Assembly: GCA_003999685.1 (NCBI GenBank)
Contig: CP021224.1
Location: 2,480,001-2,544,000 of the forward strand
Length of the DNA: 64,000 bases
DNA from: Taiwanofungus camphoratus
Taxonomy: Eukaryota > Basidiomycota > Agaricomycetes > Polyporales > Taiwanofungaceae
Reading direction: 5' to 3'
Below the pieces are notes generated by a model. The model had not been told where the DNA came from, did no database searches, and saw nothing but the letters and a program-made list of their open reading frames with translations. Position numbers and translations under genes: made by a program. This document shows positions 3,026 through 62,200 of the stretch, piece by piece (position 1 is the first letter of the stretch; each line of letters opens with the position of its first letter).

Positions 3026-3039
3026 CCACGATAGATGTG

Positions 3040-18470: not shown

Positions 18471-18764
18471 GAGCGTACTGGGAAACCTTTGGCGCTCAGC
18501 GCGACGCGAACCTTGACGCGACTTTGGCGTCTTCCCTCTTGACGTTCGAATTCTTGAGCCTCATGGTCCGCATAATCGTACGACCGTGCAAAGTGCATTA
18601 TAAAAGGTCAGCCTGACGAGCACATCTCAACGGTGATCACCAGTAGCGAAGATCTCCGTCTCGGTGCTCACCGTGTCAAAGTCACCCACTGCAGACTGCC
18701 TACATCACCTGACAACAGCTGCAACCTTTCGAAACATCCTGTGACCGTAAACTAGAACTTTGCC
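18471..18764. promoter_or_regulatory. Bidirectional promoter of TRM82 and TMEM97-like gene
   Basis: These 294 bases separate two divergent start codons and are copied at 2171-2464. Confidence 0.6.
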
Positions 18765-19516
18765 ATGGCCAGGGTCAAACTAACATCGCGTCCACTTGAC
18801 CTTGTCTATTTCACGTTCTTTATGGTGAGCCTCCGTGCTTCATCCTACCCCCCACGCTCATTGCCCTCTCCCATTTGTAGATACACCTCCCTGCGACGCT
18901 TCTGGTCGATCTCCAGGCTATATATCCTACATCCATGGTACCTGCCATGATCTCAAAGATACCCGAGCTCTATATCGCCATGTCGAGCGACCCCCTCATC
19001 GGTGGTGCTATGGGCTACTTTGGACAGCTTGACAGCTATGTTTGGTTCAAGACGTTCCTTATGCTTGAAGCGTTAGTCGCTTTTGACATTCTGACTGCTG
19101 ACTTTACCCGCGACATGACTGCCTCTTCTATTCAGGTTCTTCCAGATCCCAGTCTTCATTTTTGGCATGCGAGGGCTATGGAAAGGTGAAGCTTTATATA
19201 TATGTTCTAATATAGTTTCTCACGTATTATACTTGCAGACTCGCGTAGCATCTACGTACTGCTTCTGATCTATGCGGCATCGACAAGCACGACTACACTT
19301 CCCTGTCTCGCAGTCATCCTTACGACACCTCTCACGTCGTCCCAGACTGTGACCGCCGAGCTCGTTTCAATCACCTCTGAACAGCGACTTTTGCTGCTAT
19401 CCAGTTACATTCCATTCTTCCTCATCCCTTTAGTCATGGCCGTGGATATGGCAACCCGTGTATCGAAGCTTGTGAAAGCTGGGAGTGATGCTCAGCATGC
19501 CGTCAAAACGAGATAG
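18765..19516 (+). CDS. TMEM97/sigma-2 receptor-like EXPERA-domain membrane protein (right copy)
   Basis: Four exons (18765-18824, 18881-19071, 19136-19185, 19239-19516) give 192 residues with phase-correct GT-AG introns. The N-terminus RPLDLVYFTFFM-IHLPATLLVDLQ is diagnostic of the family, whose members span the ER membrane four times and are tied to sterol transport or sensing. Further blocks are GQLDSYVWFKTFLMLEAF, FQIPVFIFGMRGLWKDSRS and SSYIPFFLIPLVMAVDMA. The C-terminus ends AVKTR, basic as in many ER-resident proteins. The coding region seems identical to the copy at 1419-2170. It diverges from TRM82. Confidence 0.9.
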
Positions 19517-20995
19517 ATCTGCCCTCATCTCTCAGTCTTCCTTAGCATGCTTCAGAGCTGGTGCCCTCGGACAGCACTCGTTGGCATATTATTGGTCCAG
19601 CTTGGAGGACGATCGTTGGTATGAAGGTGTATCGCCTCGTATATCTTGATGCACGTACTAGATTCGGTCTGCGTGCACCGTTCCTGAAGTTCAGAGACAG
19701 ATAAAACTATTGCTAGTCACCCAGGCGCCGAACCGCTGTGACCTCCTTGGCTGCTTGAGGCCACACACAATGCATCCGATGCTATGCTCCCGATGATGTA
19801 TGACACTGACATAGAAACTCCTATCTACGGTCTACATATGTGTACGGTATCCTCGCCAGAGTGAGTCTATATGTCTCAGAGGATAGCCAATCAGAAAGAG
19901 AAGGGGCACTGACTCGAACATGCAAGACTCAATCCCAGTCGCCACGATGCAGCCCGGTACGTCTCCGCCCCCCTCCTGTTGCGGGGAAGTGGAAGTTATT
20001 CCAGAACCTGACTGTGAGCGCCTGAGCACTAGACAGGACATCGGTGACACATTCTTGATTCTCCATCTGATTCCTGTTCGCATCTTTATTCTATCTCTTT
20101 GCCTGTCATTATGTCTCACTCGGTATTGCACCTCAGGCAGGAGCCTTATCGTGACATCTAGTCTTCTTGAGGCCCTATTTGTGTGCAGCAATGAGGACCT
20201 GAAAGACTATATCCCGGGGGATGTTCCCTACCAGATCCAAATAGAGATGGCCTGCTTTTTGGAAGTTGTCAGTGTAACATCCCTGGAGCATCCCAAGACT
20301 GGTTCGGCAGGTGTGTGCTCTAGCGGCTGTGATCGATGCGCGGTTGGTGCGCAGTCAATGCTTTATCCTTTGAGGGTGGCGATTGCAAACATCGAGAGCA
20401 AGACAGAACAAAGAACGGTCCTGCCTGAGGTGCAGTATTGGGTAGCTTGTCTTCGCGCCTGAGATGCAGAAGCCTTCAATCCATCGTGCACCTGCCCTAC
20501 GACATTCTGTGCAATGAATATTCTACATTGCAGTACTCACGCGCAGAACCAATAATGCATACAGGAACAATGCAAGACCACATAGACCGCGTATCATGCT
20601 CGCGCTTAGAGTCAAACTTGCTCCAGGTACGTTTTCTGGACGTCTTCACCGAGCGATCGCAATCATGCAGCGAAGTACGCCAAATTTCTGACACTTGAGC
20701 ATCTCCAGCATTTTGATATGCCTGTGTGCCCATCACCCTGTCCTACATTTATCTGCCACTGGCTGCCAGTGCTTCTGCAAGCTTTTCTTCCCCACTACCT
20801 CCCATTACAATACTGGACAACGGACACGTTGCTGACCGTGTACTCCCTAGCATTGACTAGATAAACCCTGTTCGAAGGCAAGTGCTTTTGTCGTGCACGA
20901 TCTGATCATCTATCTTAGTGACAGGTTGATACTTGATTCACGGCCCGGTCCACGATCCTTGATCTACTTAACTACGAAGCAATATACATTCTGCA
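19517..20995. other. Outer part of right arm and junction, no recognised gene
   Basis: It mirrors 1-1418 up to about 20936, then continues into the DUF6535 gene promoter. Open frames up to 180 codons lack known motifs. Confidence 0.5.
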
Positions 20996-23828
20996 ATGCT
21001 TGGACCTGCTGCTCCATCTACGAGCCCTTCTTTGCTTCCTCGGGCAGACGATACAGAAGTCACTGAAAATGCAAGGAGTGGGATGGCAGACGGTGACACG
21101 CCCTCAGATGACCTGTCTTCCTGTTCTCCAGGTACTTCATATTTGTCTCGAGAAATGAGTACGGGTAATTACATGAGCTCAAGAAGTAACAGCCATACCC
21201 TCAGAGCTACCTCAGAGAGACGCCAGCAAGCTGGGAACTTCAAACTCAAGCCAGGTGGAAAGGCTTCAACGCCGGGGATCGCGAAAACAGACATTGCCGG
21301 AGAGGAATCCCCCAGTCAGTATGTTTACGCTCCTAGATTGGCACACAGACCTGATGAAAGTAGGGTGGACAAAAAGTGCATGAAGAAAATGATTCGAGTC
21401 CAAACTCGCAACTCCCTCAAGGCGAGGAACAAGAGCAGCGGCGACCGAGCAAGGTGAGCCTCAGATTCATCAAAGCCACAGGTTTGGCAGTTGAAGCGTA
21501 ACAAAACAGAACACGGGACGACATCCTAGAGCAAGTGCAGAGACGAGGCCAGGAGGTGAAACCCAACAAGACAAGACCAAGGCTTCTGCAGCCTGGGCAA
21601 AATGCGCAAAAAGGTTGTGGAAGGAAGATGAAGATATGATCATGAAATTGAAGCAGGAGATTGATCGCCAGCTGACATTCGTGAGCATTCGCCTTTTGTA
21701 GTTGTCGTTCAGTTAGGTTCCATGACTGTAGGGTCATGCGATGGTCAGGACAAGGTTTACATATGATCGGGTCTTTCTGCCACTAAGCCTTTCGTTCCGT
21801 TTACTGATTCCACACTGGTAGGCTGGCATCTTTTCGGCAGTGCTAACTGCATTCAACATCGAACTATACACATCGCTGCAGCCGCCTGTGGTTGATCCCT
21901 CCCTTGCGATCCTATTACACATATCGGCACAACTAAGCAGCTTCTCGGTCAACAACGGCGGGCTCATTAATTCAACACTGCCTGCGTTATCGATGACAAT
22001 TGCGCAACCACAGGTATCATCTTCGGCCATTCGCATCAATGCATGGTGGTTTTCCAGTCTTATCATGAGTCTCTCTGCAACGTCCATAGGTATATCAGTC
22101 CAGCAATGGCTATCATCTTATCTCAGCCACGGGCCTACCGATTATCGTACGAGTGCTCGCATCCGGCAACATCGTTCGTCCGGTCTGGCAAAGTGGAGAG
22201 TCATGGAAATAGCAAACCTTCTCCTGGTTCTCCTACAGGTTGCTCTCATTTTATTCCTTATTGGTCTACTGGAGCTCCTTTGGCCACTGGATAAAGTGGT
22301 TGCGAGCATTGCGACAGTCCTTGCGGGGGCTCTGGTGCTGTTTACAATATGTACCTCCATACTTCCTGCACTAGCCGAATCATGTCCGTATAAATCCACC
22401 CAAGCATGGTGGGTTATGGTGCCGTTATCATCACTCAAAGTAGCAATTTCTTTCATTGCCGAGAAGACTTGCTTGAAAAATGCTATTACCACCACTATCT
22501 CGCTGGCATGGACCATATACAACCATCTGAAAAGTGTACCGTTTCCAGATGTCCCTCACCCTCAACCTCGCTGGATGACTTACAGAAGCTGGACGGAGTA
22601 TGAGGAAGCCCTTGTCCGCTATAATACAGAGCTTGATCGATCCATTATGCTAGAGATAGCCCGGATGACCGTGGCAGAATACACATCACTCGAGGAGATT
22701 GTCCGCCCTTGCCTCAATAGTATGCAGCTTTCGCCCGCACTCTCTTGTGTCAAGACTCTTTTGGAAGAACGACAGTCCAGTGTATGGACCGGCGAGAAGT
22801 CGGATGCTGTGCTTCTGGACATTGCACTTGATGTGCTGGCCAGGACTCAATTAGAAGAATTTAAATCCGTCGAGAAGAGCATCAAGTCTCATCAAGACTC
22901 CATATTGCTCGCATTGTGGCCGTTGACTACGGATATTGCCGTGATACCGAACTTACAAGGCAGCTATAAAACATCCCATATTGTAGACGTTCTGTCTGCC
23001 CTTCTAAATAGCGATCAGGAATACGACTTTTCGAGTGACTCGCGATGGAAAGCGTCGCGTTTACTATGGTTATGTCGCGATCTTTTCCGGGACCTTACTG
23101 AAAAGCGTAAGTAGTTCAAATACTCAAAATGCTGTTTACTCACCATAGATGCTGGGACAGATGCTCGGGCGGTCATCACATACGCTACAGCATTCAAGGA
23201 GAACGAGTATCCTGAGGAATTTCTGGAGCGCGTTGCTTTGGCCCTCCATTTTTCTGCAGCTTTGTGTCCTCCAGACTACCAGCATACTCGAAGTGAACTG
23301 TTGGCAATGCTTGGTCATCTGCAGAAGGGTCTTGATACTCTTGACAATGATTCACCTTCTTCCTTCTTGTGGGACCCGTCTGTTATGTCAGTCCTCTCAT
23401 CGAGTCTGCTCCATATAGCCAAGGAGCGGCAGGATCCGAGGATTGTGAATGCTGCCCTCGTGCGTGGCCTAGAAAAGTGGTCTACAGCTGGGAAGTCTCT
23501 TGTGGGTGGTAATTGGTTTCCCGAGGAATTTTCTACCATCCATCAATGCCTACAGGAATTGCATGCCCTGCTCGACAGTTCTTCGCAGGCAGATCCGTGA
23601 GTCCCTTTCACTACCGTGGTTTCCATACTATGCATTTGCACTCAATCTTCTGCAATCAGCGCACCGGCCACCTCAGACGGTAGTGTAGATGGTACAGTAG
23701 ATGGCATCGGGAAAAATGCAGGTAACTACGTAGCTGGGTGTGCTACCTCCCCGATCTATAGTGCTATATGGTGTTACAGATCGGGTTGTAGCTGCCATAG
23801 CACTGGGAGCTACCTTAATTTTTCCTGA
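20996..23828 (+). CDS. DUF6535-domain membrane protein
   Basis: DUF6535 is a basidiomycete-centred domain of unknown function with N-terminal membrane helices. Exon 1 (ATG at 20996) is a Ser/Thr-rich, probably disordered leader. The next exon has the family lead-in KCAKRLWKEDEDMIMKLKQE, followed across an intron by AGIFSAVLTAFNIELYTSLQ, the domain core. Membrane segments follow at WWFSSLIMSLSATSIGISV, LLLVLLQVALILFLIGLLEL and VLAGALVLFTICTSIL. The long soluble C-terminal part (LDIALDVLARTQLEEF, SVLSSSLLHIAKERQDP) has a helical repeat look. An intron after KEDEDM...RQLTF and two near the 3' end (after LTEKR and ADP) are needed. The stop is at 23826-23828. It looks intact; function unknown. Confidence 0.85.
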
Positions 23829-24490: not shown

Positions 24491-27309
24491 TCATTGGGGT
24501 CCTGATGCCGGAAGTCGAAGGGACCGCATGAAGATTTCGTACGTCATCGTCTCGTTCTTCCGTGCTTTCATCTGTGCTATCTGGGCACGGAGAGAGGTTG
24601 CCACTTCTAAATTCCCTTCCTTTAAGGCAATATTGAGTTTTTCTGCCCGAGACTTGATGGTATGTGATAGGATGGCAATGTCGTAGAACTCCGTCTTCAG
24701 AGACCGGACCCATGTGTGAACAAGCTCTGCGTAGTCGGGATGTGTAGAAGCAAACACATCTCGCCTCTCCTGCTCCTGACTGATAAATGCCCATTTGTTT
24801 AGGCCGATCACATACAAGTTGGGGGATTCCCAGTCAGGGAGATGTCTGAACTGGTGCTTCTCTGGTTCGAATACAGCACAGAACCACACTAGAACAAAGA
24901 AAAATGATTCAAGGTCATGACGATAGCGATGCAGAGGTGGATTCCCCTTCTCCAGTAGATCCAGCGCCATGAAAGGACCTGTGCCAGTACGGTACCGAGG
25001 TCGTTTACGAGATTGCTCATGTGTTGCACGGACTTCATCGTCGCTGGGGGTTGGCCCATCTTCATCCTCCTCTTCGACAATGTCCGGTGCATTGTGAGCT
25101 GCTAGTGGCATAGGGGCTGGTCCATCTTCCTCTTCCTCTTCCTCTTCAACAATGTCCGGTGCATTGGGGACTATTGCTCTGTCTTGCAATCTAGATTGGC
25201 ATTCAGCTTCGCCGCTATCTGCAACCTCAGCATACCCGAAGATATTATTCTCATCGGGCTTGTTATAGATCTTCGATCGTCTATCATCTTCTGCGTGACC
25301 CCTTTCTTGAAATTTGGCCATCGCAAGATCCCAGTCGCACAGGACGCCCATAACGTCACCATCCTTCCGGTAGAACATAATATTGCCTGCACTGATGTCG
25401 CGATGCAGGATTTCCGCCGTCTCCCATACCCAGTGATGTGCTATTTCAAATAATAATCGGCGACGATGCAATATAATACGGCGAAAGAAAACATACCGCT
25501 CACAACATCGACAAAGACCTTCTTAAATTCATCAACACTGTTCACTTGTTCGAGGGCTTCGTATCTCTTCATCACCATTATACGAAACACCCGCTCCTCG
25601 TAGTCCAGAAGGTTTGTCATGTATATTCTTGGCAAATCCATTTGCTTTATGTTTCGTGTGACCGAGCATTTAAGGTCAACTACATGATCGAGCCACCGCG
25701 GTGCATGGGCCTTGAGCTTCCGCCTGATTGTCTTGACAAAGTTATCTTCCGCTTCTCGCTCCTTCGAAGGCCATGCCGTCTTCGCCACCAGATCGTCTTC
25801 GCCAAACATAACCTTCGCTGCACCAGTCGCCTTGATCGGTACCACCGCCGTTCCTCTGCCAACCGCTCCAAATTCTGTGATGACTCTTCGGCTATTATCG
25901 ATCTCGAAGACCAGCTTTTCTAACGGTTTGTCGTTCACATCCGTGGCAAGCTTGTCATCCAGCTCAAGCTTCACGCCGTCGTAGCTGTCATAAGAGCTCG
26001 ATGGAAATTCAAGAAATGGACAGATGCCCATACGTGCATGATCAGCCGAGTCCATGGCCGCAAGGTACAGGAGGAGCAGCCGTGACTCCTTCCTCAGATC
26101 GAACGGCTCCGACTGGACGATTCCCATTCGATCGCCATACCACAGGATTACTTTCGCACCTCGGATCGTGCATCCGGTAGCGTACGACCGTACGCCGTGA
26201 GACAACAGTTCGTTCATGTATTTAGCTGCTTGCATTTCATTATCCGTCAATGCCGGCTGGTTTTCAGGGTGGAGCTCTGCGTTGATGTGTGGTGCTGGTG
26301 CAAGACTCATATTGGCATCCTCGTCGCTATTCGCATGAGTCCGAGATCTCTTTGGTCGAGGTTCGACGTCATCGGAGGCACTTGCGGGTCCCTTGCGTTT
26401 CGTACCAGATGAGGTTCGACGACTCGCACATGCAACGCTTGTGCTAGGCGTAGCTGTTCCAGGCATGCAGGCGGAAGAAGTTGACTGTGAAGAGCCATCA
26501 GAGGCAAAGAATAAGAAGGATTGTCATCTATCTGAACTCGCACCTTTTCGAACGCTACCTTAGACATGTCAAAATCGGATTCTCGAACAGGTCCTTCATC
26601 TCCACTTTTGACCTCGATGAACCCGAGATACCATTCCCAGTGTTGACATCGTCTGCTCTTGGAAGTCCCGAATGCTAGATCTGGCTTTAATGCCCGAGTA
26701 AAGGTGCCTTTTGCGATGCGTTCTAGACGCGAGAAGTTAATCTTTCCGAGACTTACGTCAGAGACTGTTGTACGACTTTGCCGCTGACGACATGTGCCAG
26801 AAGTGATCTGGTCGAGGATTTGTTCCAGCATCTTTGACAGCGGGAAATAGCTATCTTTTTCGCGTAAGCACCTCCGATCCCAGTTCAGATACTCCATCGG
26901 GAATGTGTAGTTTGACATATCAGGAATGTCGTCAGGTGTAAAGTCCCAAACCGCGCGAATGAACTCGGAGACAGACAACCCGCGGTGAACTTTGTCTTTG
27001 AAGTGCGCACGGATGTATCGTTTTACGCTGTCATCCATGATATCTTTCTCCCCTGTAACGCTATGAATTGCTTCCTGTCTGAGAGGCGTCTCATGCAACC
27101 CCGTATCTGGAAAATTGATATATAATGAGGTTACACATAAGGCAAATATTGTCTTCTGTCTTACCTGTCGACAAGGCATTTCGAGGGGGTGTTCTGGGTA
27201 CCTCTATACTCAACGTAGGCGTGGGCGCAGATTTACATAATCTATCTGGCACTATAGCCATGGTGTTCTTTGTCCCAGATTCGTAGTTGGGGTCGGGAGT
27301 GTCAATCAT
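24491..27309 (-). CDS. FunK1-type protein kinase (FunK1-B)
   Basis: This is the most divergent of the three FunK1 genes here. The start is placed at the ATG at 27309 (MIDTPDPNYES); another ATG two codons upstream at 27315 is equally possible. Blocks in order are KRYIRAHFKDKVHRGLSV, KPDLAFGTSK, a basic KRSR cluster, LWYGDRMGIVQSEPFDL, GRGTAVVPIKATGAA, VVDLKCSVTRNIKQMDLPRI, the catalytic loop HRDIS (25392-25406), DWDLA (25322-25336), GTGPFMALDLL and YRHDLESFFFVLVWF. The kinase insert holds a doubled acidic unit (NAPDIVEEE...DGP, coded near 25050-25170) absent from the other two. Intron positions match FunK1-A. It looks intact. Substrate unknown; FunK1 genes are often taken to act in multicellular development. 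Confidence 0.88.
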
Positions 27310-30425: not shown

Positions 30426-33136
30426 ATGGGGCCTAACTACCAGCTAGGAATGGATGACACTAAAGCTCAGCATCAAGAGCTAGGAATCCAATCTGAACCT
30501 CTGTACATAGACGAGTCTAGGGCGCCAAAAACACCGATCTGGAAGCGCTTTGCGACAAGTAAGATGGTCATGGTGTCGACGTTGCAGATATTCTGATTGT
30601 GTCGATCCCACAGCTCAAGGATCGCCTACAAAGTCACAAGCCGCCTTTTACGCTTCCGAAGAGGACAACGTTATTGTCGATGAGGGTGTCACGCGGTATG
30701 CCCGGGCGCACTTCAGAAACAAGATTCATCGCAAAATGCCTGTGCGCGAGTTCATTCGAGCGGTGTGGGATTTTACTTCCAAGGACGTCCCATATCTTCA
30801 AGGAGAAGTAATTCCGACGCACCGTGTGAGGCAATACATGCAATCTCGTTGCAAGAGACAGAGCTACATTCCTCTGGCGAACATCTTCAGACACATCCTC
30901 AACAAAATATCGTCTGGTGAGCGTCATGAACGGCAAAGACGTGTTGCGACTTCCGGCGAACGCCTTGGAACATTGGACTTTGTCCGTGTATGGGAGCGTA
31001 CGGTGAAAGGAGACTACACGTTGGGGTCGAAGCCGGACCTTGCATTCGGCACTGCCAACAGCGAGGGACTTCTTCGGTGGGAGTGGTCCCTTGGGTTTAT
31101 TGAAATTGCACAAGAATACGGTAGAAAAATTCCGGTCGAACTTCAAATACCCCATTCTATAAAGGCACGAATATTGATTGGTCTCGGTCCTTTGTATTGG
31201 CTGACTGTACTGCTCTACTACAGTTAGGTGTCTACCAATCTTCCACGTCCAAAAACGCTACCACCAGGAAATCAACGGTACGGGGTAATTGTCAGCCTTC
31301 CTCTAGCACAAAGCGTAAGGCGCCGGCCACTAATTTTGAAGCTGTCGAACCACCGTCAAAGCGCTTTCGGTCCAATCCAAATGGCGACGACGATGCCAAC
31401 ATGAGTCTTGCACCAGCAGCGCACATCGATCGGGAGCTCGACCCTGATAATCAGCCGGAATTGACGGATCATGAAGTGCAGGCAGGGAAGTACATGAACG
31501 AGCTGCTGTCACATGGGATTAGGTCGTTTGCGACTGGATGCGTGATCAAGAGCACGTTCATCACGCTGTGGTATGGAGATCGAATGGGGATCGTTCAATC
31601 TGAATCATTCGACTTCATACTAAATCCAGACCTTCTGGTGCTTTTTCTCGCAGCCATGGAGTCGGCGGACCATGCGCGTATGGGGATCTGTCCTTTCCTC
31701 AAATTCCCGACGGGCACATACGAGAATTACTCTGGTGTGCAGCTGGAGCTGGACGATCAGCTTGCTATAGACGTGAATGAAACACCATTGGAGAAGGTGG
31801 TGTTCAAGGTCGATGAAAGTCGAAGAGTGATCACCGATTTCGGTGCAGTCGGACGGGGGACCACTATCGTGCCGATCAAGGCGACTGGAAGGGCGAAAAC
31901 TCTATTTGGTGAAGATGAGCTCGTAGCGAAGATGGCATGGCCTTCGAAGGAGCGGGATGCAGAAGACGGCTTCATAAGAATCATCCGGCAGGGACTGAAG
32001 ACGCATGCGCCACGCTGGCTTGATCATGTCGTCGATCTGAAGTGCTCGATCACTCGGAATATGGAACAGATGGACTTGCCCAGATTCTACATGAATGGTC
32101 TTCTGGATTACGAGGAGCGGATATTCCGCCTGATGGTGATGAAGAAGTACGAGGTCCTTGAGCAAGTGAATAGCGTTGACGAGTTCAAGAAAGTATTTGT
32201 CGATGTCGTGAATGGTACGTACACTTGTACTATCAAATGCCGAATAACTCCCGACTCATAATCTCATTAGCTCACCACTGGGTGTGGAAAACATCTAGTA
32301 TTTTGCATCGCGATGTCAGTGTGAACAATATCATGTTTTACAGGAAGGATGGTCAAGTCATGGGTGTTCTGTGTGACTGGGATCTCGCGATGAAGGAACC
32401 TTCCAAAGAGGAGTACATGAAAGATATGAGAGAAGATATTGCAGGCAAGGTGCTAAATGACGACATCATCTTCGAGTTCGCTCCTGTTGTTGACGACGAC
32501 AAGACGGACGAAACATCACAGCAACAGGACCCAAAGTCAACCACCAATGCACGAGATTCGCATGAAGGAGACAAACAGGCTGACCCGTTACCTGCTAAGG
32601 CAGCGAAGGAAGAGCCACATAAGCGACCTCGGTATCGCACTGGCACAGGTCCATTCATGGCACTTGATCTGCTATCCGTGGGAAGGGTACCGCTTCACCG
32701 GTATCGTTTCGATTTAGAGTCGTTCTTCTTCGTGCTAGCATGGGTGTGTGCTGTATTTGATCCGGTGCAGCATACTTTTGGGCACTTTCCGGAATGGGAG
32801 TGCCCCAAGTTGTCTCAAATCGGTTCCAACAAGACATCATTCATACTTGATGACAATCACTACACAGCTGCATTTCGGTCCGCACATCCCGATTATGAGG
32901 CGCTCGCGGTGTCGTGGGTTGGGCGGCTTCGCACCAAGATGGTCGCAGTTACTATAGCAAGAGCGAACCTCACCCACTTGCGTTGTTCTTTGCGAGACGC
33001 AAGGGCTGACGGTGATTTGGAGGAGGCAGACTCCATCAGTGCCAAGTTGCCAGAAGCGCACAAGTGCATAGACGAGCTAATGACATATGAGGTCTTCATG
33101 AAGTCTCTTCGTCTTTCGAGTTTGGAGCCACAATGA
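30426..33136 (+). CDS. FunK1-type protein kinase (FunK1-C)
   Basis: It is a close paralogue of FunK1-A in opposite orientation. The start is ATG at 30426 (MGPNYQLGMDD); the stop is at 33134-33136. Blocks: YARAHFRNKIHRKMPVREF, KPDLAFGTAN, LWYGDRMGIVQSESFDF, GRGTTIVPIKATGRA, catalytic loop HRDVS (32306-32320, Val where the paralogues have Ile), DWDLA (32375-32389), GTGPFMALDLL, YRFDLESFFFVLAWVC. The second intron seems to begin with GC (AAAG/GCACGA) where FunK1-A has GT. From about 31540 to 32290, including the third intron, it is almost identical to FunK1-A, while both flanks are clearly more diverged. It looks intact. It is the last host gene before the transposon island. Confidence 0.88.
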
Positions 33137-43980: not shown

Positions 43981-45499
43981 CTTAATTGTTTTTTCTTTTC
44001 CTTTGTTTGTCACACCATGGACGCACGGCATCTCTTCCACGCATTACTTACCCAGATTGACGGATGGGCCGACCGTCCCTGCTTACGCCATGATAGTTAT
44101 ATACTTTCAGGCCACTGACTCCTCTTGCCTTATGCTGTCTCTGGGGGACTGCTTAGTATACCTGGGGGTCAGCAGTGGCAGTATAAAGGAGGGACCCTCT
44201 GCTGGAGGTTTTCTTAGTTGTATTCTCTTTGTTCATCCATTCTGGAGTGTACTACGCATTAGTACTAATACACGCTTTCTTTACACATCTTCTCACACCC
44301 CAAGAAGCCTGTAAAGACTATCGCGACTACATAGGGCTTGTAGTTGAAGACTACTGAGGATTGTGACTCAACGTCACTGCCATTCCTCCTTGACCCTTCA
44401 CTGCACACTGCTCTAAGCTTCTGCAGCATTACCAGGGTGAACCCCCCGGTAACACTAGAATACGACTCCACAAACCCGAACCCATCCAGGTTCAAGAAGT
44501 CACAAGAAGACAGTGCCTAAAGACCCGTATTGGTCTTGAAGAAGGTGAGGTCAGCGTACTCATAGGACTAGTACTGACCACCACGGATTATCAACAACCT
44601 TTTGATATCAACTATGAACAAGAGGAAGAGCTGGATCACACAGCATTTGACCCTACTCTCCTGACTTTAGAAGAGGTCTTGGATCGAGCTGAGCGTGATA
44701 CAAGCTGGTATCAACGACCTGGAAAGCCTCGAACGTGAGGACCTGACTACTAGGAATGGTAGCGAGGCTTTATGGACACTGCGTATGTCCTTCCTGGGCG
44801 AAGTCGATAGAGTCGAGCGAGTACTCAGGTACGAAGCGAGAGGTCGCAAGATACGAGTATAAGATTGCTAGTGGTAACTAGCTACTTGGTAACCAGATCG
44901 AACTTAAGGTCCGACCTACAAAGTACAGGGCCTTATATACGTATTCTACTCTGCGCACGGACCATGGCACGTGGTCTAAGGATCAGCATGAGTAAGCGTA
45001 AGTAAGGCGATATGAGTCATCGGGCCGTATTAGCAATCAGTAAGCGTAAGACGGAATGTGTAAGCGGGGCCCGATATGAGTCAGAGTCCATGAGTAACCG
45101 GGGCCCGTCCGGGGCCCGTACCGTAAGCAGCGATGAGTCAAGACGCTGCGCGAAGAAGTTGGGCCTACTCGAGGCCCGTCCCAGAAGCGAAAAGGTCACT
45201 GGACCTGTCCGAGGTCTGACCGATAAGATATGCGATGAAAGAAATTGTATCATTACCCCCCTACTTATGATTGAACGCCTGGTCAATCAACGAAACTCCA
45301 ATGGGGACGCGTCGAGTCTCTCCGAGTCGAACTTTTGTGTTGGCGACCGTCGACGAACTTGACGAACTTCCGAGGATGAACTTGAAAAACTTGCCTGGAA
45401 GCGACGAGCGGGTGTTTCACCGCGACCGATAAGGGATGACCCTTGAACCCATAGGGGATGACCCCTCCAACCGTGAGCATCCTTCCAGCTCGAACTTTA

Positions 45500-45580
45500 C
45501 AGTTTTACGACATGTCGGTCGTAAGGTGTAGTTTAACGACGTGCACGGTCGTTCCCTCGCAGTTTAACGACATGCAGGAA
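45500..45580 (-). repeat. Short direct repeats in the 3' untranslated part of Gypsy-1
   Basis: Three copies of a GTCGT(T/A)AAACT motif with variable spacers lie between the post-pol frame and the 3' LTR, partly overlapping the end of that frame. A related decayed pair is at about 61395-61435 in the old copy. Confidence 0.6.
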
Positions 45581-45829
45581 CCACTCTGGATGATATGGTG
45601 GTACCGGGTCGTAAGCGAATGCGTAATGGACGGCGGTGCATTCGCGCATAAGGTGCCCAGGCGACGGGCGACTACAGCGGAGACATTTGTAGTCGGGGCA
45701 CGTCCTGTGCGAGTGACGAGTGCTACCGCAGAGGTAGCATGGACCGTAGCGAGTGAACGAGGATGAAAGACCGTTTGACTGAGACATACGAGCGACGAGT
45801 GGGGTGAAAAATGCGACTCCCCCTCTCAT
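45533..45829 (-). CDS. Post-pol small ORF of Gypsy-1 with two zinc knuckles
   Basis: The 98-codon frame starts at an ATG that overlaps the pol stop as ATGA (pol stop 45826-45828, ATG 45827-45829). It contains two CCHC-type knuckles: C31, C34, H39, C44 (CYLCGSTRHSHRTC) and C49, C52, H59, C64 (spacing CX2CX6HX4C). The C-terminus (HPEWFLHVVKLRGNDRARR) is basic. Zinc knuckles normally sit in Gag and bind nucleic acid; here Gag already has one. The overlap suggests coupled termination and reinitiation after pol. The old copy at 61303 keeps a matching piece (ECTTVHYVF). Function is unknown; RNA or DNA binding is inferred. Confidence 0.75.
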   Translation of the reverse strand: MRGGVAFFTPLVARMSQSNGLSSSFTRYGPCYLCGSTRHSHRTCPDYKCLRCSRPSPGHLMRECTAVHYAFAYDPVPPYHPEWFLHVVKLRGNDRARR

Positions 45830-48800
45830 CGTAAGTTCTTGCGCTGCTTATATGCGTCCAGCAGCTCGTCCGCAGTACCGGCTAAGTTCTCTTCCGGTTC
45901 CCATGAGTCATCGGCGGATGAGTAACCTTTCCACCTGACTCGATATTCCCGGCGATTCCTTCGGCGATTCTCACGATGTCCAACCAGAGCTTCGACTTCG
46001 TAGTTATCTTCGCCGCTGATAAGCTCCGGTGGTGGTTCCGTGTAGTTGGGACCATGGGTGTCCGTCTCGGTATATGGTGAAAGAAGTGCAGCGTGGAAAA
46101 CGGGGTGCACTCGCCATGTCGCCGGGAGTTTCAGCTTGTAAGACACCGGTCCGAGAACGTCCGTGATTTCGAAGGGTCCCTCGCGCTTGGGAGCCAACTT
46201 CCTCGTCGGGTATGGCAGCTTTAGATTCCGTGAGTCTAGCCATACCTTTTGTCCTTTGCGGAAACCCGTTCCTCTGGGTTTCACGCGTCTCGCCAACACC
46301 GCCTGTGCTAGCTCCATTGCTGAGTGTGCGTCTTCCCGAATCTTCTGCAAGTTCCGCAGTCGATAAGCAGCGCCCGGGGTGTCCGATCCGGGGTGTACGA
46401 CGGGAATTCCTCGAGGTTCATAGCCCATCATGACCTTGAAGGGTGACGCCTTGATTGTAGAGTGCTCACGCGAGTTGTGAGCGAATTGTGCTGAGCCCAG
46501 CAGCGATGACCAGTTGTCCGGGTTGTTGCTCGTGAAGCATCGTAGGTAGATCTCCAGTTCCTGGTTGACTCGTTCCGTTTCTCCGTCCGTTTGGGGGTGG
46601 AACGCTGTGCTCATGGCCGATTTGACTCCGGTCATACGGCAGAGTTCCTGGAATACCTTTGATGCGAACTGTGGTCCTCGATCGCTAATGATCTTGTCCG
46701 GAAGACCAAACCACTTGTAAACCTCACGATATAATGCCTCGGCTGTTCCTGATGCGTCAATCGTTTTGTTGCATGGAATGAAAATTACCCCCTTCGTAAG
46801 GTCGTGGTCCACAACGACCAAAATTGAATCGTAGCCCTCCGAAGTCGGCAAATCCGTGATGAAATCGCAGCAGAATGTGCTGAACGGAGTGGCGTGCTGC
46901 GCGGATTTGATCGGGAGTAGGGCTGGATGGGTGGGGTGCGTGTTAACCTTCATTTGCTGGCAAGTGCCGCAACCTTTGACGTATCGCGTGACGAAGTCAG
47001 CCATTCCAGGCCACCAGTAGTCTCGTCGAATAGACGAGAGGGTCTTTTGAATTCCAGGGTGGCCGGCGGAGAGGAGGTCGTGATAATTCGAGACCGTGTG
47101 TCGTCGTAGATCCTCATCTAGGGGAATATACACCCGATTATCGTAGAGGAGGTCTCCGTCTCGAATTGTCCAGTGGTCATTTGAGCCGTTTCGTGCATTG
47201 CGCATCCCTTCCGTATACACCGAGTCATTTACGCATGCTTCCGCGATGGAAGCCCTTAGACTCGTGTCGATTGCTGCTGCCCATACCTTGTCTGGTAGAA
47301 CGGTTACATCCTGGTTGTCTGATGAACCGTCGTCGTGGTCAGGGCGTCGGGAGAGTGCGTCGCTTTGCACCATTTGCGTGCCCGGGACATGAATTAACTT
47401 GTAATCGAATTCGGATAAGCGAAGAGCCCATCGTGCTTGTCTTCGATTCAAATTCCGCGCCGTTTTCCAGTACGTCAGGTTCTTGTGGTCGCTATAGATC
47501 GTGACTGGATACGGGCTTCCGATGAGAAGGTGACTCCATTCGTTGAGGCCTCTCATGACGCCCATGAGTTCCCGGTCATAGACGTCGTAGTTTCGTTCCG
47601 CTGGTGTCATACTCTGGGAAATATAACCACACGGATGCCAATCGCCGTTGTCGTCCTTTTGCCTGAGGACGGCGCCCGTGGCGAACTTTGATGCATCCGT
47701 TTCCAACGCGAACGGCTTCTCCGGGTCCGGCATCTGCAAAACCGGTTGTTCCAGGAAGGCTTTCTTTAGTGCTTCGAAAGCTTCCTGTTGTTCCTCGTCC
47801 CAGTGCCATTTGACGTCCTTTCGCGTGAGCGAGACCAGTGGCTGGGCCAGATGCGAGAACCGATGTATGAACCGACGGTAGAAATTCCCAAATCCGACGA
47901 ATGACCTAACCTCTCTGAGGTTCGTAGGTATCGGCCAGTCCCTGATGCCGGCTACCTTGACTGGGTCCATGGCGAGTTGTCCGGGTCTGATGATCATGCC
48001 TAGGAATTCGACTTCTTGCACGTCGAATTTGCACTTCTCCGGTTTGAGATATAGGTCGTTATCTCGAAGTCGCTCGATAACTCGCCGTGTTCGCTTCTTA
48101 TGCTCCTCGGGGTCCGTTGAGTAGATAAGGATGTCATCCATGTAGATTGCCAACCATCCTTCCTTGAGCATGTCCGCAAAGACCGTGTTCATCATCCGTT
48201 GGAACGTCGCCGGGGAGTTGCACATCCCGAAGAACATTACCAGGGGTTCGTAGAACGAGGGAGGTCCTTCCCCTGCTGCTGGAACACCGAAAGCCGCTTT
48301 CCATTCGTCGCCTTCCTTGATGCGAAGGTTGTTGTATCCCTGACGAAGGTCCATCTTTGTGAAGATCGTGGCGTTGTTGAGGCGTTCCAGAAGCTCTGTT
48401 ACGAGGGGAAGAGGGTATCTGTCTTTAATCGTTCCCTCGTTGAGTTCTCTATAGTCCTGGCAAGGTCGGTATCCGCCGTCCTTCTTATCCACGAAGAAGA
48501 ACGGACTTGCGAGTGGCGATTTGGACGGTCGGATGTATCCCTTCTTTATATTCTCTTCGAGGAACTTGTCCAGTTCCGCTCGTTGATCCCGGTTAAGAGA
48601 ATACGTCGACTGCTTGAAGTCCTTGAAATCCGGCTTGAGGTTTATGTCGTGGTCGAACTCCGAGTGCCGTGGAAGTCTCGCTGCCTTGGCTTTGTCAAAC
48701 ACAGGGAGGAGGTCGTGGAGGTACTCAGGAACGAGTTCCGTGACCGATTTCTCTTCTTCCTTGGCGTGTTCCTTGATAGCGAGTTCCGTAGACGTGGTGA

Positions 48801-49793
48801 GTCGGCCGATGTCGTGCTTGACCTGCCAGATAAGACCGTTTTCGAGACGACGATAGGGTCCGTCGAGAGGGTATTTTTCCTCTTTAAGAGGTGCGTCTCG
48901 ATACGCTGGATACGAGTCTCGTCCATATGTCGTGATCCGATCGTCTCCCTCGATGAACGCTATGACCAGTTCATCGTCGTCGATCGTTTCCATTGCCTGA
49001 TCCAAAGTGATACCGTTGACTAATTCTTCTACCAGGGGTGCGACGGGGATGTCGCGGCGTGCCGTCTGCCTAGACATGTCTGTCGTTGGCAAGACAGGAG
49101 ACATGGTGTCAATCACCTCGAAGTCTCCTTCATCTTCTACCTCCTCAATGGTGGGCTGCCATTGTTCCTTGAGGCGTTTTTCTCGTTCGGCAAGGAATGC
49201 CGCTACTTGTGGACAAGGGGGCGCTGACCAGTCTACCTCATAGTCTAGTACGGGATCCAGGGCTTCTTCCTGTTCTCGTTCAGCTAGTTTCTTCAGCTCC
49301 AGTCGCGCTACTCGTTGCGCGATGATCCCCTTCTTCCACTCTCGAGACTCTTGCAGGGTCATGCGGTGCTTTAGTTCCACACGGCCTCCCTTCCAGTCGA
49401 TGCTGGGGTTCTCGAGTTTGAGCCAAGTATGTCCGAAGATGACGTCTTCATTCCCTATACTGGCCACATATGCTTTGACAAACCGGGGCTCGTTCCCGAT
49501 TTTGTACGATAGCAAGGCTCGTCTGTTAATGAGCGCTTGCTTGTTGGCAGTGCCATCCACGTTGAACACCGGTATTGGGCGCGGTAGCGCCTCAGTCCGT
49601 AACTTGTGTTCTTTAACAAATCGCGGATGCACGAATATTCCCGATGCGCCACTATCGATGAAGGCGCGGGCTTCGACGGCTTTTCGTCCCACAGTAATCG
49701 GAATGTGCAAAGCTCTGTCATTCCGGACTACAAGTACAACACGGGACAGTGAAATGGATACGGGCAGTGGTTGCGTCGGCTCACCCTGCCCCT
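45826..49793 (-). CDS. pol: Gypsy-1 pol polyprotein
   Basis: The frame is open from the gag stop region to 45826, over 1290 codons. Domains in order: aspartic protease (FIDSGASGIFVHP), reverse transcriptase (YRPCQDYRELN, YMDDILIYS), RNase H (ALETDASKFATGAV), integrase zinc-binding HHCC region (AGHPGIQKTLSSIRRDYWW, CGTCQQMK), integrase core (DFITDLPTSEGYDS, ISDRGPQFASKVF, HPQTDGETERVNQELE) and a C-terminal chromodomain (YRVRWKGYSSADDSWEPEEN). The chromodomain places it with chromoviruses, whose integrases target marked chromatin. pol lies in the -1 frame relative to gag at a run of T at the gag stop, consistent with the frameshifting known in such elements. Confidence 0.93.
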
Positions 49794-51116
49794 TTAAAAA
49801 TCCTCCGTTCCTAACTCCTCGAACATCGCCCTTTTCTCATCTGATGAGAGCGTTTTGATGTATGAGCGGAAGTCCATGGGGGATCGCGCCTCGGGTTCCT
49901 TCGAGGTATTCCTTTGGCCAGCTTTGGCCATCTTCTTCGGACACTTGCGCACCGCGTGCCCTCCCTTGTGGCAGTAGAAACATAGACGATTGTCCATGTG
50001 GTACTTCCTTTCCTTCTCGCTGAGGTTGCATCCGTCCTCCCACTTCTTGGTGAACGGTGTGGGACGCGGGGTAACGAGTGCATCCACCTCCATGGGTTCG
50101 CCGTAGTCGACGTCGGTAGTGGCGGAGAGGGTCTGGTCGATCCCTCTGTAGACGGCGTCGAGGTGAAGAACATCGGCGTACCATTTTTCCATGGAGTTGG
50201 GTCGTTCCGTATTGGTGCGACCTGCGAGTGTCGTGTAGATCTGGCGGTCCAGACCTTTGATGAAGATTGCCCTCAACGTGGGGTAATCGTTCTCGGTGCG
50301 TTGGCCTTGGAGGCTCGTGAAAGCGTCCTTTAACTTGGCCTTCTCTGCCAGGAGTCGGAACCTTTCCACGTACATCTTCGTACTGACCCTGGTCTTCTTG
50401 TTTAGTTGTTTGGCCGGCAACTCCATTAGCACCTGATGAGCCCTCTGGACTCCTTCGTGCTCGGGGAACGCGAGTCGCAAGCTCGCCTTGAATACGTCCC
50501 AGCTAGCGTAGGGAGCATGCCCTCCCGCGGCCCGTTCGTAAAACGTATCGCGCCAGATACGTGCGTCCTGCCCTCCTTTCATGAGAGCGACCGTGTAAGC
50601 GATCTTTGCATTATCGCTTAACCCTTGATTGTTGGTGGCAGTGAGGTAGTGCTCCACCCGCTGGAGGAAACGCTCCAGATCTTCTCCTTGCCCAGTGAAC
50701 GGCTCTGGTGCAGGAATGTCGAGCTTAAGGGGTCGACTCCCCTGTTGCTGTTGCGCCGAAAGGTGCGCTATGAGCGCCTCGAGCTCCGCCCTGGTCATTG
50801 TTGCGATAGTAGCCATTGTGGTAGGGGTGGTAGGTGTTACGGGTGTGGTAGGGAGTGATGGGAACGTGGGAGTGGTCGGAGTGGCTATCTGCGGCGTCGA
50901 AGGTATCGATGCGGGGAAGAAACCAGCTGGGTCTCTTCCGTCTGGCGGAGGGTTACGTCTGAAGTAGGAGGCTAATTTCTCCTGTGCTCGTCGATTCGAA
51001 ATTGTCCCTGCCCACGCAAGTGGGGAGTTCGGGTAGATCGGATCGAGGTTCTGGTCAACGAAAGTCCAACGAAGACGATCGTACAGAAGCGGCGCGTCGT
51101 TTACTTGAGTCGGCAA
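49794..51116 (-). CDS. gag: Gypsy-1 gag protein
   Basis: The 440-codon frame encodes a capsid-type Gag. The middle part (WDVFKASLRLAFPEHEG, followed by a long helical region) resembles the Ty3 Gag capsid region, and a CCHC zinc knuckle (CFYCHKGGHAVRKC) is near the C-terminus. A Pro/Thr-rich stretch of TPTTP-type repeats lies near residues 60-110. It is followed by pol. Confidence 0.85.
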   Translation of the reverse strand: MPTQVNDAPLLYDRLRWTFVDQNLDPIYPNSPLAWAGTISNRRAQEKLASYFRRNPPPDGRDPAGFFPASIPSTPQIATPTTPTFPSLPTTPVTPTTPTTMATIATMTRAELEALIAHLSAQQQQGSRPLKLDIPAPEPFTGQGEDLERFLQRVEHYLTATNNQGLSDNAKIAYTVALMKGGQDARIWRDTFYERAAGGHAPYASWDVFKASLRLAFPEHEGVQRAHQVLMELPAKQLNKKTRVSTKMYVERFRLLAEKAKLKDAFTSLQGQRTENDYPTLRAIFIKGLDRQIYTTLAGRTNTERPNSMEKWYADVLHLDAVYRGIDQTLSATTDVDYGEPMEVDALVTPRPTPFTKKWEDGCNLSEKERKYHMDNRLCFYCHKGGHAVRKCPKKMAKAGQRNTSKEPEARSPMDFRSYIKTLSSDEKRAMFEELGTEDF

Positions 51117-51773
51117 TCCCCAAGCGGTGGGGTCGACTGTCTCGATGGTAGACGTGGTGTCTAACGGTTAGCCCTACTAGATAAGACTAGGGGCGACTTA
51201 GCGATAAGTTCGATCTTTTGATACAAGCTGGTATCAACGACCGGAAAGCCTCGAACGTGAGGACCTGACTACTAGGAATGGTAGCGAGGCTTTATGGACA
51301 CTGCGTATGTCCTTCCTGGGCGAAGTCGATAGAGTCGAGCGAGTACTCAGGTACGAAGCGAGAGGTCGCAAGATACGAGTATAAGATTGCTAGTGGTAAC
51401 TAGCTACTTGGTAACCAGATCGAACTTAAGGTCCGACCTACAAAGTACAGGGCCTTATATACGTATTCTACTCTGCGCACGGACCATGGCACGTGGTCTA
51501 AGGATCAGCATGAGTAAGCGTAAGTAAGGCGATATGAGTCATCGGGCCGTATTAGCAATCAGTAAGCGTAAGACGGAATGTGTAAGCGGGGCCCGATATG
51601 AGTCAGAGTCCATGAGTAACCGGGGCCCGTCCGGGGCCCGTACCGTAAGCAGCGATGAGTCAAGACGCTGCGCGAAGAAGTTGGGCCTACTCGAGGCCCG
51701 TCCCAGAAGCGAAAGGTCACTGGACCTGTCCGAGGTCTGACCGATAAGACATGCGATGAAAGAAATTGTATCA

Positions 51774-53560
51774 ACAAGTAGGGAAGGGAGCCGACCTCTG
51801 CCTCCCACTCCCTCTGAAGATTTCAATGAAGTCCTCGACCACCGCATCCTCACCACTCAGAAGGTGCTCTCAAATCTGCATTTCTCATTTCAGTTGGCTG
51901 TTCCCATAATTGTGAACCTATATCAAAGACTACTGAGCGCCCGAGATTTCTATTGCCAGTGGCAAGCTGGATCCATCCTCCAAAACGAGGTGGAGGTCGA
52001 CCCTGACGTGCACCAGGAAGGCTCATTGTTATCAAGCAGAGAACAATCAGGACGTACACCAACATTACATGAAGACTTCTAACTGGAGGGTCTGCTCAAC
52101 GCAACCGTGCCCTCACCGCTACGACTCTGTACTCTACAGGGGAAGTGATTTCGAACCTTGTACCTCAACCAATCGTGCCCTCATCCAGGCCCACTGGACA
52201 ACCTTTGATGAAATCGAGCCACCTTCTGATGAAGGCTCCAGCTCAGAGCTGACCGATCCTGACATTACATGGACAGAACAACAAATGGAGACTGAAGGAA
52301 CAGGAAAAACATTCCCTTCCACTTCGGAAATGCCCTGTGGCTTGGGCTCTTTCCAATCAGGAATAGGAGAATCAGGGCCACCACCCGATGATGGGCTGGG
52401 GGAGGAAGGCCCCCTCGAGAGAGGGCCACCTTATGATGGAAGCAGAGGACCCCCAGAAGGACCACCTGGCGGAGGAGGACCACCTGGTGGAGGAGGACCA
52501 TCTGGGGGAGGAGGACCACCTGGTAGAGGAGGACCACCCAGCGGAGGACTGCCTGATGGAGGAGGACCATCCGGTAGAGGAGGACCATCTGGGGGAGGAG
52601 GACCACCTGGGGGAGGCGGACCCCCTGGGGGAGGACCCCCTGGAGGGGGGCAGCCTCCTGGAGGAACGCCCCTCCCACAAGGAACTGCACGGATACCCAA
52701 CTGAAAGGAGCCGGAAATTACTAAGTTCTCTGAAAAACGAGAAGATGCCCGACACTTCTTCATCCAATTTGCCCAAAGATTCAACACAGAATGATGGGCC
52801 TCTGCTTCCGAACGTGAAAAGGTCGGCAATTTCCTTGGCCACCTCGAAGACCATGCTGGTGCATGGGCTGATACCCTTACCGAAAGGGCACTCGAACCCC
52901 ACCCCCTCATCAGAGGAGCGAGCTGAGGGTACGGCACTTTCAGGAATGTCGCTCTCGAGTTCATCAAAAGGTTCAGGGTAATAGAAGAGGAGGTCTCTGC
53001 AGCCATTGGACTACGGAACTTGGTCTACACCTACGACAAACCCATTGCTGACTTCAATGAGGAGTTCAACTGGCTGGCCCGCAGGGCAGAAATCACCGAG
53101 GAGAGTGCCCTCATGGCCTGGTACCGGAAAAAACTACCCAGCACCATGTGAGTCCGAATCATGGAACAAGATATAGCCCCCACAACCCTAGAAGGATGGA
53201 AGGAAGCTGCTGCCCAACAGGACTGGGCCTATCAGAACAACAAGGCCATCAATGCCACTCAAAGAACTTCGAGGACCCCCCCACGAGTCGCAGCAAGGGA
53301 ATTTGACAGTGGAAAGCCAGACCATCAGCGCTTGCAAGACCGAAGGATGGGCTCCTGCTACAAATGCCACAATAAGGGGCACCTGGCCAAAGACTGCCCT
53401 GAATGAACCTCAGGCCAGGGAACAGGACCCCCAAACCGAAGGGCCAATGTGAAAGATAAAAATGAGGCAGATGATGAAGCCTCTGAACAGGAGGAGCAGG
53501 GGCAAGAAACAAAAGGAGTCAGATTCCCCCACTTCTCTCGGCACCATGACTTTGTGGATT
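51774..53560 (+). mobile_element. Gypsy-2 gag region with Gly/Pro-rich tract
   Basis: This is the gag part of the broken Gypsy-2. A Pro-rich opening (SRPLPPTPSED) is followed by a capsid-like region and a zinc knuckle (CYKCHNKGHLAKDC, about 53356-53397). The Gly/Pro-rich tract is listed separately. Fossil. Confidence 0.75.
52365..52670 (+). repeat. Minisatellite coding Gly/Pro-rich repeats in Gypsy-2 gag
   Basis: A 15-bp unit close to GGAGGAGGACCACCT repeats with variation about fifteen times or more, giving GGGPP-type repeats in one frame. It is part of the fossil gag. Confidence 0.8.
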
Positions 53561-57269: not shown

Positions 57270-58140
57270 CAACTGTTCAACTACCCTGCAAAGAGCAACT
57301 TTGCAGCATTTCAAGGCCGCCTCCCATCATGTCCCATCGAACCAACGCCGCCCAAGCCCGCCTTGCCACCTCCATCCTCATCGCAGGGAACACCTGCACC
57401 CTGAATCCCTTCCTTTGGGGACCGCAGAACCTCCCCAACTTTGCTGAGGGGATCGTTGTCCTCCTACCTCGACAAGCAACATCTGGCCTCGCCACTGACT
57501 TTCTGACCCCTGTCGACCGCCTTGGATGGGTGCTGGCCAATGAACGACTACACCCAATGGTGGACACCACCCTCATCATCTGGCCTGATCTCGTGGCCCA
57601 GGTTGCCATCTTCTGACACCAAGCTGAGGTTGTCTTACACCTCGATCAGGTAATAAGGAGGTACAGAGGGGAGAGGGAGAAGAGGGAGCATGATGAAGCT
57701 AAGTGGTGGGCCAGCCCCATCTGAGAAATTGGTATATCATACTGGCAGGCCTGTAATGCGACGTGCTCCCACCTAAATTTCCTCCTTCGCACTGACATCG
57801 TCTCTGCCCTCAAGCATCTCCTATCACCCTCCTCCGTCATCACGTGCCCGGCCCCCTCCACTCAGGACAAGTGGACAGTTTGTCTTCACCCCAAGTGCTG
57901 CCCCCTGAACCAATGGGCTGGGGCCTGTGAATTCTGCATGGGCCTCGATCATGTTGCTGCCGACTGCATCCACTGGCCATGATTGGGGGAGCCAGCTGTT
58001 GAGCCTTTCGTTCCGCCTCGCTGTCTGAATTGTTACGCTGATGACCATGACACTGACCAATGCCCCAAGGCAGGGTCCGAAATCAGTGGGTGGAAGCAGC
58101 CTGATGAGGAAGCTACCAGGTCGTGAAGGTAGGTGTCAGG
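57270..58140 (+). mobile_element. Gypsy-2 post-pol region with two zinc knuckles
   Basis: Between the chromodomain and the 3' LTR lie about 870 bp with coding character. Near its end are two CX2CX4HX4C knuckles (CEFCMGLDHVAADC and CLNCYADDHDTDQC, about 57930-58065). This parallels the post-pol double-knuckle frame of Gypsy-1. The region is broken and treated as a fossil. Confidence 0.65.
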
Positions 58141-60890: not shown

Positions 60891-62200
60891 GCCTTACGCC
60901 CTTTAGCTAACTCTAGTTAAAAACTTCGTGGCAGTCTCGTATCATTGGCCAATTGATTGAAGCTATATTCTGTTGGCTTATTGCTCCCTAACTCCATACA
61001 GCCTACAAAGTCAGCTCATGCGCTTTAGCTAAAAACTTCGAAGGACTTCGCAGAACTTCGAAGGACTTCGCGCACTTCAGAGGGCCTCACAAGGCCTTAG
61101 GGATTGTCTAGCACTTAGAAACAAGATCCTGTCGTGCAGGACCCTTGGCCCCTTACTCTCTCATTTACAAAAACAAGACATACAGGTTTCCCAGTATCAT
61201 ACAGGTTGTAGCTCCTCCCCTCACATCCTCACAGTTCACACACTACCTCCTAGCCACGTTGCGGAGCACTCCCTAGGTACCAGGGTCCCCTAGGTCATAT
61301 CACCAGGCACCTCACATATGAATGCACCACTGTCCACTATGTATTCACCAATAACCTGGAACTGTTGTATTATTCAGAGTGGTTCCTGCATGTCATTAAA
61401 CTGCGAGGGATGACCAGCATGTCATAAAACTGCAAGGTGCACGATGAAACACTCATCAAGGTTCAAGGTGAAACACCCTCACAGTTTGAGGGGCCATCCC
61501 CTACTGGTTGCAGCGACACACCTGCATGTTCACTTCCAGAGATTTTCAAGTTCATCCTCAGAAGTTTTTCAAGTTCGATTTTATTCAAAAGTTCGATTCA
61601 AGTTCAATGCATTACCCATGGAGTTTAGTTGATTGACCAGGTGTTCAATCATAAGTAGAGGGGTAATGATACAATTTCTTTTCTCTCGTATCTTATCAGT
61701 CGGACCTCAGATCGGTCTCATGACCTTTCACTTCTAAAATGGGCCTCAGGCAGGTCCAGCCTCTTCATGCAGCCCTTTTGACTCATGGCTGCTTATGGTA
61801 TGGGCCCTGCTTACTCATGGACACTGACTCATATTGGGCCCCGCTCACACATTCTGTCTTATGCATACGTATTGCTAATATGGCCTGATGACTCATATTG
61901 CCTTACTTACGCTTACTCATGCTGCTTCTTAGATCACATGCCATGGTCCATGTGCAGGGTAGAATATGTATATAAGGCCCTGTACTTTGTAGGTCGGACC
62001 TTAAGTTTGATCTGGTTACCAGGATTCTAGCAATCCAATACTTGTATCTTGTGACCTCTTGCTTTATACCTGAGTACTTGCTCAACTCTTATCGACTTTG
62101 CTCTAGAGGACAACAGATTGTCCTTAAGTCCTCGCTACTATCTCTCGTAGTCAGGCCCTCATGTTCGAGGCTTTGTAGTCGTTGATACCAGCTTGTATCA

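Follow-up and report, generated by a model that had tools for sequence, protein, structure and literature searches.

A zinc-knuckle reading frame kept by selection behind pol in chromodomain Ty3/Gypsy elements of Taiwanofungus camphoratus

Introduction

Gag and Pol are thought to be sufficient for the transposition of LTR elements. The Gypsy/Ty3 element Cer1 of Caenorhabditis elegans is described as carrying, like the elements presented here, a non-envelope gene (CERV) between pol and the 3' LTR, together with a Gag that also bears knuckles (PMC10309623). Gypsy-like elements of bdelloid rotifers are likewise described with diverse non-envelope third ORFs, typically expressed from spliced messages (PMC5408684), and the additional ORFs of plant LTR elements are reported to lie most often between pol and the 3' LTR, accessory roles having been proposed for them (PMC7264820). 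In fungi, the legend of Figure 3 of a Gypsy survey, devoted mainly to chromodomain elements, labels an 'add. ORF' of unknown function (PMC2864245).

Here, a third frame (ORF3) is described behind pol of an element located in a window of 64,000 nucleotides of T. camphoratus (the whole stretch of DNA analysed, contig CP021224.1, positions 2,480,001 to 2,544,000), together with its relatives in the same genome.

The element and its third frame

The host element lies on the minus strand of the window, between a 5' LTR (TGATACAA...TTGTATCA, 51219..51773) and a 3' LTR (44696..45252) that are identical at 554 of 557 positions, in line with the young age that the original prediction had given it. A G-rich run (AGTAGGGGGG) located three bases before the 3' LTR on the same strand is presumably the polypurine tract. 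The bases flanking the two LTRs (44684-44695 and 51774-51785) show no visible target-site duplication. The gag open frame (49794..51167, minus strand, 457 amino acids from stop to stop) has one CCHC knuckle (CFYCHKGGHAVRKC) near its end, and pol (45826..49836, minus strand, 1336 amino acids) encodes a protease, a reverse transcriptase, an RNase H, an integrase, an SH3 domain and a chromodomain. This LTR-flanked element with the pol order protease, reverse transcriptase, RNase H, integrase and chromodomain is a chromodomain Ty3/Gypsy element (chromovirus), the protease models scoring near but below the Pfam cut-offs on the window pol. The two frames have 43 nt in common (49794-49836), with pol in the -1 frame relative to gag, and no textbook slippery heptamer is evident there by eye.

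Behind pol, a 98-codon open frame is found at 45533-45829 on the minus strand; as had been predicted, with no strand given, it carries two CCHC knuckles and its ATG overlaps the pol stop as ATGA. This frame comprises (i) a spacer behind the pol stop (45788..45825), an A-rich tract of varying length that has no codon-position bias and falls outside the conserved gene, and (ii) ORF3 proper (45533..45787, minus strand), with 84 codons plus the stop, beginning MSQSN. The first knuckle (CYLCGSTRHSHRTC, 45698..45739, minus strand) has the spacing CX2CX4HX4C and the second (CLRCSRPSPGHLMREC, 45638..45685, minus strand) the spacing CX2CX6HX4C, in a predicted protein of 84 amino acids with a pI of 9.4. 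A search of PDB sequences with this protein gave weak matches only (an unrelated chain at E 0.019, then a retroviral nucleocapsid at E 0.057), a single-sequence AlphaFold model of it was uninformative (mean pLDDT 37.6), and Rfam at gathering thresholds gave no match within the window.

Two further ORF3 traces announced in the original prediction were recovered in the window, both on the plus strand. The one near 61303, in an old Gypsy-1 copy, is a remnant of the family A ORF3, to which the element above belongs (61221..61412, 48% identity to residues 36-93, one TAG); the other, the post-pol region of Gypsy-2, is a decayed family C ORF3 (57329..58123) with three in-frame TGA (codons 96, 132 and 218), in which both knuckles (CEFCMGLDHVAADC and CLNCYADDHDTDQC) are still readable. 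Elsewhere, the window contains a large inverted repeat (1-3027 and 17908-20936, with arms of 2064 nt at 99% and 967 nt at 98%, about 15-19 kb apart), Pkinase_fungal domains in several repeated stretches (4801-6716 and 25441-26523, minus strand; 31125-32261, plus strand) and a DUF6535 protein (21822-23114, plus strand).

Four families in the genome

The family search covered the assembly to which the window belongs, with 15 contigs and 33.2 Mb, and returned 131 matches which, by our own count, comprise 78 family A copies, one remnant in the window and, for the rest, mostly family B copies. The matched codons are free of in-frame stops in 64 of the 78 family A copies. The family B ORF3 is a protein of about 469 amino acids, with the knuckle pair of family A embedded in a frame of about 480 codons. 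The family C (= Gypsy-2) ORF3 has 268 codons, with the knuckles CEFCMGLDHVAADC and CLDCFADDHDTDQC; before them, at residues 185-190 (numbering of copy L032), lies an extra Cys/His group, C-L-H-x-E-C, which does not vary among the four copies aligned in A2. Family D was recognised because the family C protein matches 46 places at 24-30% identity (own count), mostly in the part before the knuckles; its ORF3 has about 251 codons and only one knuckle (CIRCRQMGHWSHDC, CX2CX4HX4C). The Pfam model zf-CCHC matches family B at 31.8 bits against a cut-off of 20.8, is below cut-off for families A and D and does not match family C, and no other Pfam model is above cut-off for the proteins of families A and C. 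Searches of PDB sequences gave no match for family B and only weak lin-28, splicing-factor and Gag matches for family C. A large protein collection and viral contigs yielded no relatives of the ORF3 proteins outside this genome, an absence that says little since the fungal coverage of these collections is uncertain.

In order of relatedness, the pol proteins of families A and B are 88% identical over 663 amino acids, those of C and D 67% over 645 amino acids, and those of A or B are 46-51% identical to those of C or D. For ORF3, the knuckle pair is homologous between A and B (hhalign 97.7%, 49 columns), and between C and D, 151 columns can be aligned outside the knuckles (hhalign 95.7%); between A/B and C/D, hhalign did not show homology, aligning knuckle columns only, at 24% or less. 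Since the A and B pols are 88% identical and their ORF3 proteins have 84 and about 469 amino acids, respectively, ORF3 has been rebuilt within the A/B group.

The SH3 domain that closes these pols was found at 276 candidate places, of which 150 were scored. An ORF3 of type A, B or C follows within 2.6 kb downstream on the same strand at 147 of these 150 pol ends (A at 53, B at 48 and C at 46), the D elements lying outside this count. The three scored pol ends without a listed ORF3 of these types are G000:C11:1178613 (minus), G000:C4:2943204 (plus) and G000:C5:1299019 (minus). As judged by sequence comparison, post-pol knuckle genes, related or analogous, are present in at least four sequence families.

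Purifying selection on ORF3

Variation was first measured in 52 family A copies, namely the 51 best by protein score plus one. As such a choice favours conserved copies, the other 26 were read as well. Among the 52 copies, nucleotide diversity rises from 0.065 in ORF3 and 0.086 at the pol end to 0.104 in the 3' UTR and 0.148 in the spacer. At codon positions 1, 2 and 3, it amounts to 0.047, 0.041 and 0.107 in ORF3 and to 0.058, 0.053 and 0.145 in pol, and it is flat in the UTR, while indels are rare in ORF3 (0.005 per site per copy) compared with the UTR (0.06) and the spacer (0.10). The differences in ORF3 comprise 211 non-synonymous and 297 synonymous changes, a ratio of 0.71 against the 2.52 expected from the UTR mutation spectrum including CpG effects; under this spectrum, synonymous change reaches 0.98 of its expectation and six stops are seen where 34 were expected. 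Pooled pN/pS is 0.26 in the first 52 copies, 0.39 in the 26 lowest-scoring ones and 0.34 in all 78, and each zinc ligand is intact in all scored family A copies, except for one Cys to Tyr change in a single copy. The outcomes that the original prediction had named as contrary to it, a frame not conserved in other copies or changing in a neutral-like manner, were not found, and the codon-position bias of ORF3 resembles that of pol.

The rates of families B, C and D come from 9, 7 and 9 chosen, mostly intact copies, respectively, with L066 (family C, truncated by a stop) and L035 and L036 (decayed B relatives) excluded. In family B, dN/dS is 0.09-0.18 (36 pairs of the 9 copies, dS mostly 0.4-0.7) and the knuckle region is the most constrained (pN/pS 0.04). 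In family C, dN/dS is 0.16-0.22 between subfamilies, with dS near or above 1, and close pairs, with few changes each, spread from 0.04 to 0.50; here the middle, probably helical, part (0.23) is more constrained than the knuckle part (0.39). Family D has a pooled pN/pS of 0.21 at low divergence. ORF3 is under purifying selection in every family tested and, being a sense frame behind pol that selection has kept in several copies, it qualifies as an accessory ORF.

Start of ORF3

ATGA is present at the pol end in 65 of the 78 family A copies, but is in frame with the knuckles in only 34 of them and out of frame in 31, because the A-rich tract behind the pol stop varies in length. The first 52 copies contribute 48 of these ATGA (25 in frame), the other four having another motif, and the 26 lowest-scoring copies contribute 17 (nine in frame), with seven lacking the motif (most end in CTGA), one deleted at this place and one, L105, whose junction is unscorable. 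Family B pol ends often read CTGAG or CTAAG. In the 21 copies with a spacing of 42 nt, the three codon positions of the A-rich tract are equally variable (0.299, 0.299 and 0.305). Even between the nearly identical copies L014 and L017, which are 0.2% apart elsewhere, the length of this tract (equivalent to 45788-45825) changes by one base. Copies L009, L010 and L015, which are 0.2-0.6% apart and have the out-of-frame spacing 41 in common, are recent independent insertions with different 3' flanks, which implies that an out-of-frame copy has moved; these three copies may have been helped in trans.

Of the 77 copies with a match extending over the second ATG (MSQSN, window 45787), in turn, 76 retain it, so that ORF3 probably starts there and has 84 codons. 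The original prediction had placed the start at ATGA and the production of the protein in reinitiation at this stop-start pair. Neither is supported: 31 out-of-frame copies among 65 and the retention of the second ATG speak against the start, and the same frames (an in-frame restart ATG in no more than 34 of the 65), the loss of the motif in 8 of the 26 lowest-scoring copies and the tract without codon-position bias speak against the reinitiation. What stands is the retention of a knuckle frame behind pol, claimed for two families and here extended, as a frame kept by selection, to at least four; its reinitiation at ATGA is unsupported.

Expression of ORF3

The frame that continues pol stays open across the ORF3 ATG in 15 of 16 copies of the other two families (6 of 7 in C and 9 of 9 in D) and terminates past this ATG, after 114-423 nt in C and 519 nt in D; it was traced back into pol in L032 (C) and L059 (D) only, the other loci reaching at most about 130 nt upstream. 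The pol frame is open inside ORF3 over 519 nt at L059 1597-2117 and over 360 nt at L032 2502-2863. In the remaining C copy, L065, this frame is closed 25 codons ahead of ORF3, and pol may thus end before ORF3 there. The length of the overlap is not kept among C copies and the overlap of pol and ORF3 may therefore be due to chance. As the pol frame passes the start of ORF3 in C and D, reinitiation is not the mechanism shared by the families; ribosomes leaving pol would already be beyond this start, and a separate mRNA is the simplest common answer.

The explanation that we favour with moderate confidence is that ORF3 is a true third gene, starting at 45787 and encoding a nucleocapsid-like accessory protein that would bind RNA or cDNA, made from an mRNA of its own and not by reinitiation at ATGA. 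On the frames described above, such an mRNA is the likelier source, and it would arise from an internal promoter or by splicing. Splice donor and acceptor motifs are present but too short to be informative, and neither a conserved splice donor nor an internal promoter could be established. Splicing would remove an intron of about 5 kb, a size that would be unusual for a fungus. A spliced genomic copy was sought among the first 52 family A copies and not obtained, pol end, stop region and ORF3 being continuous in 51 of them; the sole exception, L048, has a short deletion at the pol-ORF3 junction.

Reinitiation after the pol stop, at ATGA or at the MSQSN ATG some 40 nt further on, would instead deliver a little ORF3 protein from full-length RNA, and several distances are compatible with it: the second ATG of family A is usually 40-45 nt past ATGA, the ATG of ORF3 in B copies L031-L034 is 7-48 nt after the pol stop, and ATGA is in frame in 34 of 65 copies, the commonest spacing being 42 nt. 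TGGGA, 75 nt before the pol stop, could also be counted in its favour, being the central motif of TURBS, a signal for reinitiation in caliciviruses (PMC5972666), although the same bases code for Trp-Glu in the chromodomain. The 31 out-of-frame copies, three of them recent independent insertions, the unbiased A-rich tract and the C and D frames running beyond the start of ORF3 all argue against it, as does the great rarity presumed for reinitiation behind long ORFs (PMC5972666). The start context also argues against it, family A usually having a weak C at -3, whereas B, D and most of family C have A; this context is good in family C and, to a lesser degree, in B and D. We consider this explanation doubtful as a whole; at the second ATG in families A and B it is possible, and as a mechanism shared with C and D it is rejected. 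That readthrough or frameshifting yields ORF3 as the C-terminal part of pol is suggested by the overlapping frames of C and D and by L037, in which the frame of pol is by chance joined to that of ORF3, but is highly improbable: in family A, ORF3 occurs in all three frames relative to pol (spacing classes of 26, 14 and 12 among 52 copies) and keeps its second ATG almost throughout, and family C has A at -3, with the good context CACCATG in 6 of 7 copies. A pol-ORF3 fusion is rejected in view of the frames.

Possible function of ORF3

Judging from its knuckles, ORF3 is most likely an RNA-binding accessory factor of the element. The protein would bind the RNA (or cDNA) of the element beside Gag, in a nucleocapsid-like manner, and would help the genomic RNA to be packaged, exported or reverse transcribed. 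Gag likewise bears a knuckle, as seen for A and C in the window and for B in L034, which makes ORF3 an addition and not a replacement.

CCHC knuckles are also known to bind DNA and proteins, and PPxY motifs to recruit Nedd4/Rsp5 ligases. A real and selected ORF3 could therefore have a main partner other than element RNA, such as DNA, a host regulator or, for the family B protein, a ubiquitin ligase, since a PP[AV]Y motif is found near the C terminus of the family B protein in 9 of 9 copies (L031-L034 and L075-L079), in a proline-rich, acidic tail. No PPxY was seen in the family A window protein, and the four families have nothing in common but the knuckles; such a partner appears unlikely. ORF3 might also be a decaying envelope-like or captured gene with no present function, considering that family A keeps only the knuckle part of the family B protein and that stops occur in 14 of 78 family A copies. 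This is hardly credible in view of the purifying selection in every family tested and of the nearly invariant ligands; moreover, in a crude calculation on one member per family, the largest 19-residue hydrophobicity mean is 1.4, and a strongly hydrophobic stretch, as in an envelope-like third ORF, is lacking, nor is there an envelope match among the Pfam results for ORF3.

Under the favoured interpretation as an RNA-handling gene, the presence of a selected frame at 147 of the 150 scored pol ends points to a further factor for RNA handling that these elements require, or from which they benefit, in addition to Gag and Pol. Factors of this kind would then have arisen not only in animals and plants. 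Many copies are young, which makes the role and the expression of ORF3 accessible to direct tests. The case also calls for caution, in that a stop-start overlap in a single copy should not be taken as a mechanism.

Comparison with known systems

In the open-access literature searched, no account of fungal elements with knuckles encoded behind pol was found. The fungal 'add. ORF' could be identical with ORF3 or different from it, the text available on it naming no knuckles, family, start or selection (PMC2864245). The rotifer ORF3s differ in being GDSL esterases, DEDDy exonucleases, transmembrane or coiled-coil proteins, and the text available on them makes no mention of zinc (PMC5408684); nor does that on the plant additional ORFs, some of which are antisense (PMC7264820). 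The CERV gene of Cer1 differs in its length of 517 amino acids and in its spliced mRNA, which is described as sharing exons with gag (PMC10309623); ORF3, for its part, has true CCHC knuckles, and the likeness of the two is one of description. At the protein level, the family A ORF3 resembles NCp7 of HIV-1, a small basic protein with two closely spaced CCHC knuckles, to which the weak nucleocapsid match mentioned above belongs. Like retroviral-type nucleocapsids, ORF3 has CCHC knuckles with conserved ligands, but a retroviral nucleocapsid is the C-terminal part of Gag, from which it is cut, whereas ORF3 is separate and located after pol, with the spacing CX2CX6HX4C in its second knuckle.

More broadly, and only tentatively, the chromodomain Gypsy elements of such fungi could as a rule encode a dedicated post-pol zinc-knuckle protein for RNA handling, with an mRNA of its own, repeatedly remodelled around the knuckles (as from 469 amino acids to a knuckle-only 84, in elements with 88% identical pols), which would be comparable to CERV or to a combination of retroviral Rev and nucleocapsid.
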